Part shown: one piece after another, positions 1,246 to 7,586 of the stretch
Position numbering within the stretch: the first letter of the stretch is position 1
How the letters are laid out: every line of letters begins with the position of its first letter
IMG/VR virus record: IMGVR_UViG_3300017818_000119
Coordinates: 1-22,972 of that record
DNA length: 22,972 nt
Origin: a virus
Direction: 5' to 3' (one strand)
Notes under the pieces: model-generated
What the model was told of the DNA's origin: nothing
Database searches by the model: none
Seen by the model: only the letters and a program-made list of their open reading frames with translations
Translations under genes and position numbers: made by a program

Positions 1246-2040
1246 ATGACAGCTTGGTTAAAAGACTATGTTACGGATTTGTCGATTGCACCTGAAGGTC
1301 GTCTGCGGATGGATTGTCCAGCCTGCGGCAAAAAGAATACCTTTAGTGTTTCTGATACTGGCGGTGAACGCCTTTGGTTTTGCTTTCACGCTGACTGTGG
1401 TGTTCGCGGACGAACCGGTTTCCGAATCCGAACCGATACACCCTATCATCCCCTGTTACGGAAGACAATGCCTGTTCGCGAACCAATCTGCGAACCAGAG
1501 TTTCAACTTCCTGATACCGTTGTCCCTGTGTCTCGCAGCGAAGAAGCTGTGCGATACCTAAAGCGGGTTAACGCCTACGATGCGTACCTTGCAGGGCGTG
1601 TCGATATTCGTTATGACTTTCGCATGAATCGTGTTGTCTACCTAATCAAAGATGGTAGGCGAACCGTTGACGCTGCGGGTCGTAGTCTTGTTAATGCTAA
1701 ACCAAAATGGTGGAGATATGGAAAATCCGGCAATCCTTTCGTTTGCGGTGCCAGCCGCATCGGTGTTCTTCTGGAAGATTGTGCTAGTGCTTGCAGTGTA
1801 TCTGGTTTTCTTTCGGGGATAGCCCTCTTGGGAACGAACCTACAAGATAGCCACTTGCCTTTCTTAAAAAGATACGATAGATTACTTGTTGCCTTGGACA
1901 AGGATGCGACAAAGAAAGCGTTGCAACTTGTTCGGCAACTGCAAGGCCATCGGCCTACGAGCTTAGTTGTTTTGAACAAAGATGTGAAAGAAATGGAAGA
2001 AGATGAACGACACTCAACCTTCGCGAAATACCTCGATTGA
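1246..2040 (+). CDS. Zinc-ribbon TOPRIM DNA primase
   Basis: Makes the RNA primers for lagging-strand synthesis, acting with the helicase encoded next. From the start at 1246 the protein has 264 residues. An N-terminal zinc ribbon has C24 and C27 (CPAC) paired with C46 and C51 (CFHADC). A TOPRIM core follows, with the catalytic Glu in VLLEDC (E177) and the DxD metal site in ALDKD (D218, D220). KDVKE near the end resembles the KDxNE motif of T7 gp4 primase. The helicase domain that T7 fuses to its primase is a separate gene here, overlapping this one by 38 bases. The first 250 bases carry six GTTCG/CGAAC words, including a GTTCGCGAAC palindrome. Confidence 0.88.
   Translation: MTAWLKDYVTDLSIAPEGRLRMDCPACGKKNTFSVSDTGGERLWFCFHADCGVRGRTGFRIRTDTPYHPLLRKTMPVREPICEPEFQLPDTVVPVSRSEEAVRYLKRVNAYDAYLAGRVDIRYDFRMNRVVYLIKDGRRTVDAAGRSLVNAKPKWWRYGKSGNPFVCGASRIGVLLEDCASACSVSGFLSGIALLGTNLQDSHLPFLKRYDRLLVALDKDATKKALQLVRQLQGHRPTSLVVLNKDVKEMEEDERHSTFAKYLD
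1474..1483. repeat. GTTCGCGAAC palindrome, copy 1
   Basis: A perfect 10-bp inverted repeat inside the primase gene. Another CGAAC follows ten bases later and three related words lie within 80 bases upstream, making this the densest cluster in the window. Confidence 0.8.
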
Positions 2041-3241
2041 ACTACAGGTTCTGGGGTTCTTACTAAACAATGATTTCTACAACAGGGTAAAGAACATCGT
2101 CACTCGTGATATGTTCGAGGGGCGGTATGCTACCCTGTTTGATACGATTACCTACGCCCACAAGAACTATGCCACGAACCTGTCGCGTGAGCAGCTAGAC
2201 TCTTTGTTCATGGACAGGAACCCTGCTATGCCATCAAGTGCAAAGCAGGAAGTGTTTGATATTATTGCACAACTCAGTGAGCGGGTTAGTGATAGTGGTG
2301 ACCTAGAGTTAGATGTAACTAAGAATTTCTGGGTTCGTGACCGTGCGCGGCAGATTGGCGAGAAGGCTATTGCCATCTTCACTGGCGAATCCGAACACTT
2401 TGGCGAACTAAAGACCTTGATTGATATGGTCGAGGACGGGCGTATGTCCGACAAGACTACCTATAGTGAAATGGACAAGGGCTTTGTTCAGCTAATGGAA
2501 GAAGAGGTTGGCGAACCGGACTTCCCCTTCACTTGGGATTTGATGCGTGAGCATTTGTCAGGTATGGACAGGGGCAACCTTGGTATCATCTTTGCCCGTC
2601 CAGAGGTAGGCAAGACTACCTTCTGTGCCTTTGTTGCCGCAAGCTACATTAAGCAACAGCATAAGGTAGTTTACTGGGCGAACGAGGAACCGGCAGAAAA
2701 AATCAAGCTTAGGATTATTCAGAGCTTCTTCGGTTTGACACGGGATGAGATGAAGGCAGGAGCCGATGCTCTGTCCCATCGATACGCAACGGAAATCGAG
2801 CCTTACCTAACTGTGATGGATTCGGTAGGTACTTCGATGGAAGAGCTAAATGAGTATGCCCAGCTAAACGAACCAGATGTTATGTTCTGTGACCAGCTAG
2901 ATAAGTTTCGTGTTGCTGGTGAGTTTAACCGTGGGGATGAACGCCTAAAGGAAACCTATGTCGTTGCTCGTGAGATTGCCAAACGTAACAAGCTGCTTGT
3001 GTGGTCTGTTAGTCAGGCAAGCTTCGAGGCACATGACCGACAGTTCATCGACTACGCTATGCTAGACGGTTCGCGAACCGGTAAGGCAGGGGAAGCAGAT
3101 GTCATCATCGGGATTGGCAAGACGGGTACATCCGAAGAGGAGAACACGGTTCGCCACATCTGTATTTCTAAGAACAAACTAAACGGATGGCATGGTATGT
3201 TTACCAGCCACATTGATGTGCAGAGAGGGGTTTATTACTGA
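2003..3241 (+). CDS. DnaB-like replicative DNA helicase
   Basis: A hexameric motor that unwinds the duplex ahead of the polymerase. The protein has 412 residues. The N-terminal 110 residues are helical and resemble a DnaB N domain (LQVLGFLLNNDFYNRV). The RecA-like core has Walker A ARPEVGKT at 198-205, Walker B PDVMFCD ending at D297, a sensor-like stretch WSVSQAS near 334-340, and a C-terminal segment with ISKNKLNGW. The P-loop begins with Ala rather than Gly, as in other DnaB-type ARPxxGKT loops. The start lies inside the primase gene with GGAAGA just upstream. The stop TGA shares its A with the next ATG. Together with the separate primase it replaces the T7 gp4 fusion. Confidence 0.9.
   Translation: MNDTQPSRNTSIELQVLGFLLNNDFYNRVKNIVTRDMFEGRYATLFDTITYAHKNYATNLSREQLDSLFMDRNPAMPSSAKQEVFDIIAQLSERVSDSGDLELDVTKNFWVRDRARQIGEKAIAIFTGESEHFGELKTLIDMVEDGRMSDKTTYSEMDKGFVQLMEEEVGEPDFPFTWDLMREHLSGMDRGNLGIIFARPEVGKTTFCAFVAASYIKQQHKVVYWANEEPAEKIKLRIIQSFFGLTRDEMKAGADALSHRYATEIEPYLTVMDSVGTSMEELNEYAQLNEPDVMFCDQLDKFRVAGEFNRGDERLKETYVVAREIAKRNKLLVWSVSQASFEAHDRQFIDYAMLDGSRTGKAGEADVIIGIGKTGTSEEENTVRHICISKNKLNGWHGMFTSHIDVQRGVYY
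3067..3080. repeat. GTTCGCGAAC palindrome, copy 2, extended to 14 bp
   Basis: CGGTTCGCGAACCG is a perfect 14-bp palindrome in the helicase gene, the longest of the six copies. It overlies codons for a GSRTG peptide, so codon choice rather than protein sequence allows it. Confidence 0.8.
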
Positions 3242-3711
3242 TGATTGAAGTTATAGTTACAGATGATATGATATCTGCTGCAAAACAAAAAGCTTTAGAT
3301 ATGGGCAGATTAAATAACTCCATTCTATCTGGAACAGGTAACATGGCAGGTTTTGTAGGAGAGCAGATAGCATTATCTGTCTTAAAGGGTGAGTGGTCTA
3401 ATACATACGATTATGATATTCTGGTAGATGGATATAAGGTCGATGTTAAGACAAAGCAGACTACTGTAAAACCCAAACCATTCTATGAATGCAGTGTTGC
3501 AAACTATAACACTAGACAGTTGTGTGATGTGTACGCTTTTGTCAGAGTTTTAAAAGACCTGTCGAAAGGCTGGTATCTAGGCAGTATAAAAAAACAAGAT
3601 TACTTTTCTAAAGCAGTATACTTAAAGAAAGGCGACATAGACCCGTCTAATAACTTTACTGTTAGAGCCGACTGTTATAATCTTAGAATACAGGAGTTAG
3701 ATTTAAAATGA
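3241..3711 (+). CDS. PD-(D/E)XK nuclease-like protein, probable moron
   Basis: 156 residues. A predicted helix carries GFVGEQIALSVL with E41. It is followed by YDYDILVDG (D57, D59) and then VDVKTK (D68, K70), which is the E / D / DxK order of PD-(D/E)XK nucleases. The likely activity is Mg-dependent DNA cleavage; the target is unknown. It interrupts the helicase-exonuclease pair, sharing one base with the helicase stop and overlapping the exonuclease start. Its DNA differs sharply from its neighbours: it is AT-rich, all five arginines are AGA, and GTTCG/CGAAC is absent from 3154 to 3759. This suggests recent acquisition. It could be a homing-type or competitor-excluding enzyme, a host-DNA-degrading enzyme or a recombination nuclease. 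Confidence 0.65.
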   Translation: MIEVIVTDDMISAAKQKALDMGRLNNSILSGTGNMAGFVGEQIALSVLKGEWSNTYDYDILVDGYKVDVKTKQTTVKPKPFYECSVANYNTRQLCDVYAFVRVLKDLSKGWYLGSIKKQDYFSKAVYLKKGDIDPSNNFTVRADCYNLRIQELDLK

Positions 3712-4295
3712 ATATCCTAACCTTCGACGTGGAAACCACCCACAAACCCAAACCCAACGGTTCGACAACTGCTCTGCCGTACTTCGGAAACTCTTTAGTT
3801 TCAGTTGGTTACAAGTGGCTTGGCGAACCCGAAGTCTACTACCACTGCTTCTATCACAGTGTTTGCGAACCACAAGAGTTCGCTGCTGAAATATTCCAAG
3901 CACATCTTGACGAGGCCGATGTAGTTGTGGGACAAAACATAAAGTTTGACTTATCTTGGATACGGGAATGCGGATTTATATACGATGGTAAAATCTACGA
4001 TACGATGGTGGCGGAGTATATTCTTTCCCGTGCGAGGCGTTGGCCTCTTGGACTTGCTGCTCTTGCAGAGAAGTATAGTGATGTGCCAAAGGAGAAAGAC
4101 CTTATCGAACCGTATTTCAAGGAAGGTAAGACATTTTATGACATTCCTTGGGAAATAATTAGAACATATGGAAAGGCCGATGTTCTGGCAACAGAACAGG
4201 TCGCAGTAAAACAGCTTGAAGCTTTCGGAACTACCTTTGAGGAACTATTCAATGAACAACCAGACACTCTTGCCCACTTTGCGTCTGTCGCTTGA
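3708..4295 (+). CDS. DEDDy-type 3'-5' exonuclease (proofreading subunit)
   Basis: 195 residues with the three Exo motifs of DnaQ-like proofreading enzymes: FDVET (D7, E9), GQNIKFDL (D81) and YGKADV (Y154 and D158, the Y-x3-D pattern). It removes mismatched 3' ends and should act with the polymerase that follows, since the polymerase lacks its own exonuclease domain. The ATG overlaps the upstream stop, with AGGAG 11 bases before it at 3692-3696. The last 44 bases overlap the polymerase start, which should couple their synthesis. In T7 and E. coli both activities sit on one chain, so this is a split arrangement. Confidence 0.9.
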   Translation: MNILTFDVETTHKPKPNGSTTALPYFGNSLVSVGYKWLGEPEVYYHCFYHSVCEPQEFAAEIFQAHLDEADVVVGQNIKFDLSWIRECGFIYDGKIYDTMVAEYILSRARRWPLGLAALAEKYSDVPKEKDLIEPYFKEGKTFYDIPWEIIRTYGKADVLATEQVAVKQLEAFGTTFEELFNEQPDTLAHFASVA

Positions 4296-5799
4296 GATGA
4301 CGGACACTCTTGCCCGTATCGAACAGAACGGTATCAAGATTAACAAAGACACACTTGCCGACATCCGGCGCGAATACGAGGACGAACTGTTTACCCTCGA
4401 ACGCCGTCTCAACGAACTGGCAGCAGAAGCTATGGGTGATACCCCTATCAACCTAGACAGCCCTGATGACCGTTCCAAGCTGTTCTACTCTTGTAAGGTT
4501 TTGAACAAGAACAGATGGGCTGGTATTTTTAACCTTGGTCACGAGGTTCGCGGGGCGGGGCGTAAGCCTAAACGCCGTACACGGATGAGCCGTAATGACT
4601 TCCGCCGCAATGTTCTCAATGAGACAGAAGTGTTGTATAAGACTGTAGGCTCTCAATGTACCGATTGCGGGGGCGTAGGGCGGTATACAGCCCGTAGAAA
4701 GGATGGGACGCTAGGTAAGGCTGTCCGAATCTGTAAGCCCTGTGAGGGGACAGGTGTGCTCTACATACCCACGAACCAAGTTGCGGGGTTCAAGCTCGTT
4801 CCTCGTGACCCGTATGATGTGGCTGCTGCCGGTTTCAAAACTGACAAAGAAACCCTTGAAAGTATGTTCACATCCCTTCGTGGTGATGCTCGTGAGTTCG
4901 TGGAAGCTTACATCCGGTATAGTGCTGTTCGAACCTATCTGCGTTCTTTTGTCGAGGGTATGGAGAATAACATGGATGGGCAGGGATTCATTCACACAGA
5001 ATTTATGCAGTGTGTTACTGCAACGGGTCGTCTGTCTTCTCGCAACCCTAACTTCCAGAATATGCCACGTGGCTCTACCTTCATCATCCGTAAGGCTGTA
5101 GAGAGTCGGTTCGCGGGTGGGTCAATTCTAGAGGGCGACTATGCCCAGCTAGAGTTTCGTGTCGCTGGATTTCTTGCCAAGGACGAGGGCATCAGGGCTG
5201 ATGTGGAAGCAGGAACAGATGTGCATAGCTACACTGCCAGTATCATAGGATGTTCGCGGCAAGATGCTAAGGCTCACACCTTCAAACCTCTGTACGGTGG
5301 TGTATCGGGTACTGAAGACCAGAAACGCTATTACAGTGCATTCAAGGAAAAGTACAACGATGTAACTAAGTGGCATGAGTTCCTGCAAAAACACGCGGTT
5401 ACCAAAAAGTACATACAGCTTCCTTCAGGACGACAGTACGCTTTTCCACAAGCCAAGTGGACAGACTGGGGTACGGCAACTGACCGAACAGCTATCTGCA
5501 ACTATCCTGTGCAGGGGTTCGCAACTGCTGACCTACTGCCTATGTCACTGGTTTTGTTGGATAAAAGAATCCGCGAACAGGATTTGCGTTCGGTAATCTG
5601 CAACACTGTTCACGACTCTATCGTGATGGATGTATATCCGGGCGAAGAAAAAATTTGTATTGACACGATGGCTGAATGTATGTTAGCCATCCCATTGGAA
5701 TCAAAGAATAGGTACGGGATTGCCTATGACATGCCGGTTGGTATCGAACTAAAAATGGGAAAAAACTGGCTTGACTTGGAAGAGGTACTTACTGTATAA
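4252..5799 (+). CDS. Family A DNA polymerase with a DnaJ-type zinc-binding insert
   Basis: Replicative polymerase, 515 residues. The start at 4252 is chosen over 4216 because GAGGA lies eight bases before it. A DnaJ-like segment at about 136-168 has CTDCGGVG (C136, C139) and CKPCEGTG (C161, C164), which should bind zinc. The polymerase core follows: TGRLSS near 259, motif A EGDYAQLEF (D296), O-helix R336, K340, F344 and Y348, and motif C VHDSIV (H454, D455). F344 corresponds to Phe762 of E. coli Pol I. The residue after the motif C Asp is Ser, where Pol I and T7 have Glu. No exonuclease domain is fused. A DnaJ-bearing polymerase is, as I recall, a hallmark of the HMO-2011 phage group; the role of the zinc segment is unknown. 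Confidence 0.93.
   Translation: MNNQTLLPTLRLSLEMTDTLARIEQNGIKINKDTLADIRREYEDELFTLERRLNELAAEAMGDTPINLDSPDDRSKLFYSCKVLNKNRWAGIFNLGHEVRGAGRKPKRRTRMSRNDFRRNVLNETEVLYKTVGSQCTDCGGVGRYTARRKDGTLGKAVRICKPCEGTGVLYIPTNQVAGFKLVPRDPYDVAAAGFKTDKETLESMFTSLRGDAREFVEAYIRYSAVRTYLRSFVEGMENNMDGQGFIHTEFMQCVTATGRLSSRNPNFQNMPRGSTFIIRKAVESRFAGGSILEGDYAQLEFRVAGFLAKDEGIRADVEAGTDVHSYTASIIGCSRQDAKAHTFKPLYGGVSGTEDQKRYYSAFKEKYNDVTKWHEFLQKHAVTKKYIQLPSGRQYAFPQAKWTDWGTATDRTAICNYPVQGFATADLLPMSLVLLDKRIREQDLRSVICNTVHDSIVMDVYPGEEKICIDTMAECMLAIPLESKNRYGIAYDMPVGIELKMGKNWLDLEEVLTV
4927..4934. repeat. GTTCGAAC palindrome in the polymerase gene
   Basis: An 8-bp perfect palindrome formed by two overlapping copies of the enriched pentamer in opposite orientation. 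Confidence 0.7.
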
Positions 5800-5835: not shown

Positions 5836-6690
5836 ATGAGCACAGAACTACAAAATGTAAATGATGACTTGAATAACTTCCTTGCTGCCTTCGAAGAAGG
5901 TAATGAGGAATCCCTAATGGAACTGAGTGGTCAGAAGGACGGTGATAGTAAGCCGCAGCTTGGACTGCCACGCCTGACCATTAACTATGAAACAGAGACC
6001 GATGACGGTATAGTTTTGAAGCGCGGTGCGTGGAGAATCTGGAACGGTTCAGCACCGGTCTATGCAGATAGTGTACAGATTCGCCCATTGATGCGTACCT
6101 TCGAATGGTCTGTGTGGGACCAAGAAGAGGGCAAATTCTCCTGCAAGTCTGTGCAAAAGAATAAGCTAGGTGGGGATTTCCCAGATACATCTGGCGGTAA
6201 CAAGTGTGGTCGCCTGTCACGGCAAGAAGAAGAAGCCTTGAATCAAGATGACCCTCGTGTTCTGTTGAGCCGTTCGGTCAACTGTAATCAGGTAATCTAC
6301 GGTGTCTTAGACGCTGCAGATGCTACCTTGGCAGACGGTACTGCTGCTCCTATCGAGGCAATGCCGTTCGTGGCATATTTCAAGCGGTCAGGGTTCCGAC
6401 CTGTTAGTGACTTTATTCAGAAGCAGCTTACAGACCGTAAGATTATGATGCAAAAGGCAGTCATCGAACTGACTACTGAAAAGCAGAAGAACGGTGGTGT
6501 TGTCTACTGGACACCTAAGCTGTCTCTGGTCAAGGAAGTAAGCATCAGTGACACAGATAAGGAACTGATGAAGAAGTTTGGTGAGACTGTCATTGCACAT
6601 AATGAGTCTGTGTTCGAAGAATACAAGCAGGCTCAGAAAGCAATGTCTTCTTCTGATGATATCGACTTGTCGCAGCGTCTGGCTGGCTAG
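5836..6690 (+). CDS. Conserved-looking replication-cluster protein, candidate ssDNA-binding protein
   Basis: 284 residues with a strong AGGAG site eight bases before the ATG, after the only gap of note (36 bases) in the early part of the operon. The N-terminus is acidic and Asn/Glu-rich. The middle (about 45-215) looks beta-rich with many aromatics (FEWSVWDQ, MPFVAYFKR, VVYWTP). The end is acidic and disordered (SSSDDIDLS). A beta core with an acidic tail between polymerase and exonuclease is where podophages keep their ssDNA-binding protein (T7 gp2.5 type), so I suggest that role. I see no diagnostic motif, and an annealing or scaffold role is equally open. Its own strong ribosome site suggests high expression, which would suit an ssDNA-binding protein. 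Confidence 0.5.
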   Translation: MSTELQNVNDDLNNFLAAFEEGNEESLMELSGQKDGDSKPQLGLPRLTINYETETDDGIVLKRGAWRIWNGSAPVYADSVQIRPLMRTFEWSVWDQEEGKFSCKSVQKNKLGGDFPDTSGGNKCGRLSRQEEEALNQDDPRVLLSRSVNCNQVIYGVLDAADATLADGTAAPIEAMPFVAYFKRSGFRPVSDFIQKQLTDRKIMMQKAVIELTTEKQKNGGVVYWTPKLSLVKEVSISDTDKELMKKFGETVIAHNESVFEEYKQAQKAMSSSDDIDLSQRLAG

Positions 6691-6692
6691 TC

Positions 6693-7586
6693 ATGTTACC
6701 ACTTGTAGAAGTACAAGACTTTCTACAAAAGGCGGGGCGGGGAGAGGTTGATTCTTCTCGCCTCGAACCTTTGATAGAACAGTTTGGTGAGGACTGTAAG
6801 GCAGCTATGCGTAAGCAGTTCTCTAGTCGTGGTGACTATCGGATTCGTATGTCCGGTGTAGGTCGCCCTCTCTGTCAGCAGCAGCTTGAAAAGCAAGGAC
6901 ACAAACAAGATGTTGCCTATAATGATATAGTACGGTTCGCAACCGGTGACCTGCTAGAAGCCTTCGCCATTCTTGTGATGAGGGCAGCAGGATTGAAGGT
7001 AGTTGACGAACAGAAGAAGTGCAGCCTCGAACTGGCTGGAGAGACTGTCAACGGAACTCTAGACTTGATTCTCGACATAGACGGAGAAGAAGAGGTCTGG
7101 GATATTAAGACAGCAAGCCCGTGGTCATTCGATAACAAGTTTTCTGGTCGTGGTGGCTACGATGTCATCAAGGAAGATGACCCGTTCGGATATGTCATGC
7201 AGGGTCACCTGTACGGTGAATCTGAAGGTAAACGCTTCGGTGGTTGGATTGTAATCAACAAGTCTACTGGTGAGTGGGACTTTGTAGAAGCACCCCGCGA
7301 ACAGTCTGTTGACCGTGCAACATACCTAGAAGATGCGAACAAACGGGTGAAGGCTATTATTGAAGACGCTCCTTTCAAGGTGCCGTTTCAATCTCAGCCA
7401 GAGACTGTTACTATCGACAGGCAAAAGGTAGAGACAGGAAATCGTCTGATGCCAAAGACCTGCACCTTTTGTTCATTCAAGACTATCTGCTGGAAGAATG
7501 CAGAGCTTGCACCGAAAGTAACATCCAAGGCACGGTTCAAGCCTCACGTATGGTACACTAAACTGGTGAAGCGGGAGCTAGACTGA
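6693..7586 (+). CDS. RecB/Cas4-like PD-(D/E)XK exonuclease with probable 4Fe-4S cluster
   Basis: 297 residues. Nuclease motifs in order are GDLLEA (E89), GTLDLILD (D124), WDIKTAS (D137, K139) and GYVMQGHLYG (Q170, Y174), the RecB-family signature. One early cysteine (C61 in RPLCQQQ) and a C-terminal CTFCSFKTIC (C257, C260, C266) match the four-cysteine iron-sulphur pattern of Cas4 and AddB nucleases. It probably resects or degrades dsDNA ends for recombination and recycles host DNA, like T7 gp6 in role. It begins two bases after the previous stop with only a weak ribosome site, and its stop shares a base with the next ATG. The assignment is firm for the family and inferred for the role. Confidence 0.85.
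   Translation: MLPLVEVQDFLQKAGRGEVDSSRLEPLIEQFGEDCKAAMRKQFSSRGDYRIRMSGVGRPLCQQQLEKQGHKQDVAYNDIVRFATGDLLEAFAILVMRAAGLKVVDEQKKCSLELAGETVNGTLDLILDIDGEEEVWDIKTASPWSFDNKFSGRGGYDVIKEDDPFGYVMQGHLYGESEGKRFGGWIVINKSTGEWDFVEAPREQSVDRATYLEDANKRVKAIIEDAPFKVPFQSQPETVTIDRQKVETGNRLMPKTCTFCSFKTICWKNAELAPKVTSKARFKPHVWYTKLVKRELD

Follow-up and report, generated by a model that had tools for sequence, protein, structure and literature searches.

A family A DNA polymerase from a lineage of marine phages carries two conserved cysteine pairs within a positively charged insertion of the thumb, placed after the helix that begins with FNLSS in E. coli Pol I and lacking in related polymerases, and its 3'-5' exonuclease has been split off into an overlapping gene. 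The zinc segment of such polymerases is already known; the split variant and the sharper placement of the segment in the thumb are added here. The window analyzed here is a 22,972-base virus stretch of an ocean phage (IMG/VR record IMGVR_UViG_3300017818_000119). Its replication genes are arranged in the order primase (1225-2040), DnaB-like helicase (2003-3241), a small gene (3241-3711), 3'-5' exonuclease (3708-4295) and family A polymerase (4252-5799); the last two genes and all elements located within them lie on the plus strand. The primase carries its own putative zinc ribbon and a Toprim signal without a helicase domain, and its gene overlaps the start of the helicase gene at 2003. On the 3' side of the polymerase, a 284-aa protein (5836-6690; phrog_5686, no Pfam match) and a Cas4-like exonuclease (6693-7586; phrog_1990, 4e-29) are encoded.

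Separation of the exonuclease gene

The polymerase ORF is translated into 515 aa with no internal stop, and its match to PF00476 (3e-47; 161.8 bits against a cut-off of 34.3) assigns the protein to family A. This match spans residues 193-507 (4828-5772; profile positions 56-380 of 381), the palm and fingers of the polymerase core, with D296 at 5137-5139 and H454-D455 at 5611-5616. In a 111-row alignment, the catalytic D296 and D455 are found together with K340 in 111/111 rows and R336 in 110/111, R336 and K340 being the O-helix arginine and lysine expected of family A. Within the same region (residues 336-348, 5257-5295), F344, the equivalent of Klenow F762, is invariant (111/111 rows), and residue 348 is tyrosine in 68 rows and phenylalanine in the other 43. 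The Klenow 762 position has been tied to phage lifestyle. The best named-phage matches of the polymerase all belong to the HMO-2011 type (HTVC033P, 48.8% identity; CRP-3, 41.1%; HMO-2011, 40.1%), and among the 12 HMO-2011-type "DNA polymerase" records that cover at least 96% of the query, 11 cover 99% at 36-49% identity.

The exonuclease had been considered separate in the first-pass annotation, and it does occupy its own ORF of 195 aa (3708-4295), with a PF01612 match (5.2e-11) of 43.1 bits against a cut-off of 23.6. Residues D7, E9, D81, Y154 and D158, which we take to form the DEDDy motif, are kept together with N77 in 72/72 complete exonucleases of the clade, as expected of a DEDDy proofreading enzyme. 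All clade contigs that contain the junction are split (158 split, 0 fused), with exonuclease and polymerase as overlapping out-of-frame genes; as these 158 contigs are related and hold 133 distinct polymerase sequences, the counts do not represent independent events. The 158 loci comprise 86 distinct loci, including the window and with re-fetched contigs removed, and 72 from the last scan, in which three more contigs are cut before the exonuclease. In the first scan, 77/80 contigs reach the exonuclease, all of them split, and the other three are cut. In the other HMO-2011-type branches, by contrast, 343/343 records with both domains and the cysteine fingers are fused and none is split (310 distinct ORF proteins), and HMO-2011, HTVC033P, CRP-3, CRP-603 and CRP-738 all encode exonuclease and polymerase in one ORF. 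In a 94-row tree, the 12 split rows are found on one side of a branch with an SH-aLRT of 100, and the split group is placed within the finger-bearing group, beside the HTVC033P type (SH-aLRT 97, with a program warning of long branches there). Judged from sequence and tree, the separation of the exonuclease is a lineage-specific fission with one origin. The window polymerase has the two-CXXCXGXG segment and the tree placement of the HMO-2011 type, but exonuclease and polymerase are not in one protein, and it is therefore filed as a split variant, with the HTVC033P type as sister, and not as a typical member.

Two other origins of the split were rejected. Sequencing error does not account for the same junction in 158 distinct contigs. 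For a homing endonuclease, the gene considered was the small one at 3241-3711, which encodes 156 aa and separates helicase from exonuclease. No notable Pfam, NCBIfam or PHROG family matches it, and its stretch VDGYKVDVKTK resembles, by eye, a PD-(D/E)XK nuclease core. Among the loci with at least 900 nt upstream, it is present in 1/59 split loci, which is the window itself, and in 1/286 fused loci; being found in only 2/345 loci, it is not tied to the split.

The two genes overlap by 44 nt (4252-4295) with a +1 frame change, and the exonuclease stop TGA (4293-4295) lies in the polymerase codons S-L-E. A Shine-Dalgarno sequence, GAGGA (4239-4243), lies inside the exonuclease ORF, 8 nt ahead of the ATG that starts the polymerase. 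In the 86 distinct loci of the first set, GAGG precedes an in-frame ATG by exactly 9 nt without exception. A Shine-Dalgarno sequence of at least 4 nt with an in-frame start is present in 158/158 loci; since the same scan of five upstream windows as a loose control also passes in 307/741 cases, the mere presence of both signals is weak evidence, and the pattern is stronger. Codon 178 of the exonuclease, a glutamate codon, is GAG in 72/72 sequences, the observed changes preserve the Shine-Dalgarno sequence (AAGGA, GGAG), and the longest version, TAAGGAG, occurs in the five loci in which the start codon is TTG. The spacing to the start is about 7-8 nt in most loci, with overlap lengths of 29, 35, 38, 41, 44, 50 and 68 nt. 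The exonuclease stop falls within the polymerase codons S-[LF]-E in 153/158 loci, so that the polymerase sequence itself may explain much of the constancy of this stop. In four split loci (L560, L561, L565 and L566) the leucine of S-L-E is encoded by CTG, the usual TGA is lost and the exonuclease is extended to the 68-nt overlap; in one further split locus it ends in TAG. An alternative TTG start of the polymerase at 4216 (527 aa) is disfavored, as the open frame before the ATG varies (74-137 nt before the exonuclease stop), while the ATG at 4252 with its Shine-Dalgarno sequence is kept.

These signals are consistent with separate translation of the exonuclease, the stop of which overlaps the polymerase start and may lead to coupled initiation. 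Alternatively, programmed +1 ribosomal frameshifting in the overlap could yield exonuclease and polymerase as one protein. The frames do differ by +1, the constrained frame switches from exonuclease to polymerase near 4252, and relatives are fused. Nevertheless, frameshifting is improbable and is not favored: start codon and Shine-Dalgarno sequence are kept in every one of the 158 loci, with changes that keep or strengthen the latter, its distance to the exonuclease stop varies where a prfB-like site would need a fixed distance, and by eye the overlap contains no classical slippery site.

The zinc-knuckle insertion and its place in the thumb

Two CxxCxGxG-like knuckles had been noticed in the polymerase at first reading, and both are recovered by motif scan and conservation as putative zinc knuckles: CTDCGGVG at residues 136-143 (C136/C139; 4657-4680) and CKPCEGTG at residues 161-168 (C161/C164; 4732-4755). 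They contain the only CXXC pairs of the polymerase, and among 200,000 shuffles of its residues at least one CXXCXGXG match occurred in 237 and two in none. Across all fetched records, duplicates included, both pairs are present at the expected spacing in 541/557 (461/477 with a polymerase hit and 80/80 of a later scan). The 16 exceptions are seven contigs that start within or after the segment (L276-L281, L464), five named phages outside the HMO-2011 type (L084-L088) and four distant contigs of 27% identity (L282-L285). Loss of the cysteines in active relatives, named beforehand as a finding that would speak against the proposed role of the segment, was sought, and the HMO-2011 type yielded no case. 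All rows of the 111-row alignment (37-88% identity to the window protein) share the four cysteines, G141 and G168; since these rows were picked for carrying CXXC pairs, the invariance of the cysteines is partly by construction, and the unbiased figure is 541/557. In many HMO-2011 relatives the CXXCXGXG spelling of knuckle 2 is relaxed and its cysteines are kept. Bacterial and archaeal genome bins contributed 10 loci, eight with the segment and two cut before it (two pairs share contig names). The segment is matched at E<=1 by 12 of 50,697 phage records; all 12 belong to the HMO-2011 type, with one phage represented twice, which agrees with the earlier statement that this fusion is rare outside such phages.

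The segment resembles the cysteine-rich domain of DnaJ. A profile of the insertion alone matches the E. coli DnaJ zinc domain (1exk, residues 26-64, motifs 2 and 3; E 3.7e-4), and the Pfam family DnaJ_CXXCXGXG (PF00684) is matched by 56/56 scanned insertion sequences at E<=0.1. Against the PF00684 cut-off of 32.7 bits, the whole polymerase scores 18.5 bits (residues 134-170) and the insertion alone 22.3 bits, both sub-threshold. The likeness thus concerns motifs 2 and 3: DnaJ possesses four CXXCXGXG motifs and a J domain, whereas the segment has two motifs, sits within a polymerase and lacks a J domain, which is not among the three Pfam families listed for the polymerase at E<=1 (PF00476, PF00684 and a weak Zn_Ribbon_Prim). 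Motifs 2 and 3 of DnaJ jointly bind a single zinc ion, and a single-zinc ribbon is therefore expected in the segment. The description as "DnaJ-type" remains apt for the zinc knuckles, and nothing points to a chaperone function. A role in bringing the DnaK chaperone system of the host to the phage replication complex, by analogy with lambda, is most implausible for the segment, because stimulation of DnaK by DnaJ requires the J domain, and two of the four motifs are missing. The points in its favor are the sub-threshold PF00684 match and a mention of the DnaJ role in lambda replication in a passage of PMC9038755. The insertion profile also matches phage antitermination protein Q (7ubj, E 0.0079; 4mo1, E 0.015), and the Q-like phrog_6060 is matched by 50/56 insertion sequences. 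Here, the two-knuckle ribbon is shared, but Q is a transcription factor without a polymerase core. A built-in thioredoxin-like part, suggested by a single weak match of the helix-strand-CXXC half of the insertion profile to the thioredoxin 4ruv (E 0.0098), which is curious in view of the thioredoxin used by T7, was dropped as probably due to chance: the 16 matches listed at E<=1 include no other thioredoxin, and in the model the CXXC is followed by hairpins and not by a helix.

The position of the segment is defined by the thumb helix that follows INLDSP (residues 66-83; 4447-4500), which by alignment is the equivalent of Klenow FNLSSTKQLQTILFEKQ (578-594) and is modeled by AlphaFold2 as a helix at residues 71-79. 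It is followed by the thumb-tip insertion (residues 84-186; 4501-4809), a basic region with the predicted zinc ribbon that is lacking in the V1209, V1077 and StenR_269 polymerases and in E. coli Pol I. In finger-less relatives (two Zobellviridae vibriophages and StenR_269), the thumb helix leads directly to the following strand, whereas some 100 additional residues intervene in the window protein; relative to E. coli Pol I, the alignment places the insertion roughly between residues 594 and 596, behind the helix starting with FNLSS at 578. The PF00476 match begins only at profile position 56, after the insertion. The segment had initially been placed upstream of the polymerase core, which is right for the order in the sequence; by alignment and model, however, it belongs to the polymerase domain itself and is located at the thumb tip, after the FNLSS helix.

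The AlphaFold2 model of the window polymerase has a pLDDT of 91.1 and a pTM of 0.81, with values of 78-97 for ten-residue blocks of the insertion, and over 389 of 515 residues it can be superposed on Bst Pol I 463-876 (Z 32.3, VIA-align). A natural fused homolog (L170; pLDDT 90.6, pTM 0.83) superposes on Bst Pol I (3ez5_D) with 531/678 residues (Z 35.8). The insertion is thus predicted to leave the Klenow-like core intact. Its own fold is likewise a prediction, in which hairpins between the knuckles (E144-148 and E154-160) are compatible with a zinc ribbon.

Phage T7 polymerase also has a thumb insertion, at a different place. T7 NPSS pairs with FNLSS of Pol I in a pairwise alignment (score 80; the mean of shuffled sequences was 26, and 0/500 shuffles scored as high). 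FNPSS is located at T7 334-338, and the thioredoxin-binding insertion ends just before it. The T7 and window insertions therefore lie on opposite sides of one thumb helix, and the window polymerase does not show the T7-type arrangement with the insertion before this helix. Two automatic multiple alignments did not pair the two motifs and hhalign covered T7 397-701 only; the motif-based reading then held in the pairwise alignment. T7 polymerase is absent among the best 50 matches listed in either structure comparison, which has no bearing on the fold.

Role of the insertion

Residues 84-180 of the insertion carry a net charge of +13 in the window, with a median of +8 and a range of -1 to +18 over the 111 rows, so that a positive charge is usual but not universal, which counts against the clamp described below. 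Lysine or arginine is found at position 86 in 111/111 rows, at 130 in 110/111, at 149 in 111/111 and at 150 in 97/111; the last two belong to a basic turn (R149 K150 D151 G152; 4696-4707) of the hairpin that links the knuckles, and in this turn G152 is kept in 109/111 rows. Mean entropy is higher in the insertion outside the fingers than in the core (1.87 versus 1.28), so that this part is less conserved. The most likely role of the insertion would be to clamp the primer-template with a basic thumb stiffened by zinc, with proofreading in trans. Zinc would be bound by the four cysteines, and the stiffened hairpin with its conserved basic turn would close over the duplex of primer and template as it emerges from the active site. 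The closed hairpin would then keep the polymerase on DNA as an intrinsic clamp, in the manner of the T7 thumb insertion although no host protein would be needed, and the 195-aa exonuclease would re-associate with the polymerase or proofread in trans. The clamp is favored because thumb-tip insertions serve processivity in the T7 and human mitochondrial polymerases and because the basic turn is conserved. Thumb insertions of both enzymes are described as binding processivity factors in a section of PMC7699545, and excerpts of PMC5984650 report contacts between the DNA backbone and basic residues in the T7 insertion, listing residues from K268 to E330 as DNA-contacting. As the window insertion is one helix away from that of T7, the positional analogy is loose. 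It had been proposed earlier that the segment may replace the processivity function that T7 obtains from thioredoxin; the thumb-tip position and the basic charge support this indirectly, but the insertion is not that of T7, and "replace" can only mean an analogous solution. The best joint explanation, a single-zinc DnaJ-type ribbon on a basic thumb-tip insertion of about 100 residues that acts as an intrinsic DNA clamp, with a separate exonuclease, is advanced tentatively and falls somewhat short of being probable.

A serious rival, somewhat unlikely in our estimate, is that the zinc ribbon forms a docking site for a replisome partner such as the helicase, a single-strand binding protein, the primase or a host protein. 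DnaJ-type zinc domains are protein-binding modules, and related zinc knuckles occur in the antiterminator Q (7ubj, 4mo1). Outside the fingers the insertion is variable, as partner-specific surfaces often are, and this variable part would also fit a tether or docking site. The T7 thumb insertion, too, is described in part of PMC7699545 as binding the T7 single-strand binding protein. Against docking, the most conserved non-cysteine positions are basic residues and glycine, which suit nucleic-acid contact at least equally well, and the analysis yielded no partner gene.

The insertion might also mainly hold the exonuclease to the polymerase, as contact must persist in this lineage if the separate protein proofreads. 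This is decidedly improbable. The ribbon is equally present in the 343/343 finger-bearing records with a covalently fused exonuclease, so that holding it cannot be the ancestral role, and the exonuclease of Klenow-like enzymes packs on the palm and the base of the thumb, not on its tip. The idea of the first-pass annotation that the segment mediates contact with the exonuclease is weakened by the same records, and the thumb clamp remains the preferred reading.

Relation to known systems

A partial DnaJ central domain has already been described for HMO-2011-type polymerases (in passages of PMC6918029, PMC9038755 and PMC8528129). The published account, as far as these passages go, places the segment between two domains, whereas here it is assigned to the thumb tip within the polymerase domain. 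Sequences of >540 aa were taken for the polymerase phylogeny according to the methods passage of PMC9038755, a limit below which the 515-aa polymerase of the split branch would fall. The literature searched gave no earlier account that places the segment in the thumb or describes an exonuclease gene of its own for the HMO-2011 type, and the words "thumb", "split" and "frameshift" have 0 uses each in PMC9038755.

HMO-2011-type phages are abundant and widespread in the oceans, as stated in part of PMC9038755. It is conceivable, although we consider it unlikely, that a marine phage lineage has a two-subunit family A replicase, in which a polymerase with its own zinc-stiffened clamp and no need of a host processivity factor is joined by an exonuclease subunit made from an overlapping gene by coupled translation. 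If so, proofreading per polymerase would be tunable, and the exonuclease may be shared or exchanged. The natural fission would provide a family A replicase to which the proofreading subunit can be added back at will, and placement at the thumb tip makes the vague "partial DnaJ domain" directly testable for processivity.

Among known systems, the HMO-2011-type polymerases (HMO-2011, HTVC033P, CRP-1/2/3 and others) are the closest, sharing the family A core and the two-CXXCXGXG partial DnaJ segment; they differ in that exonuclease and polymerase form one ORF, where the window has two overlapping ORFs. The T7 gene 5 polymerase is likewise a family A phage polymerase with a basic insertion at the tip of the thumb; its insertion precedes the FNPSS helix, has no cysteine ribbon and binds thioredoxin, whereas that of the window follows the matching helix, contains two CXXC pairs and is not known to depend on thioredoxin. 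Lineage-specific thumb insertions, some of them lysine-rich, are also found in the plant organellar, human mitochondrial and theta family A polymerases; in the relevant part of PMC7699545, no zinc ribbon is described for these insertions, which serve lesion bypass, end joining or the binding of processivity factors.
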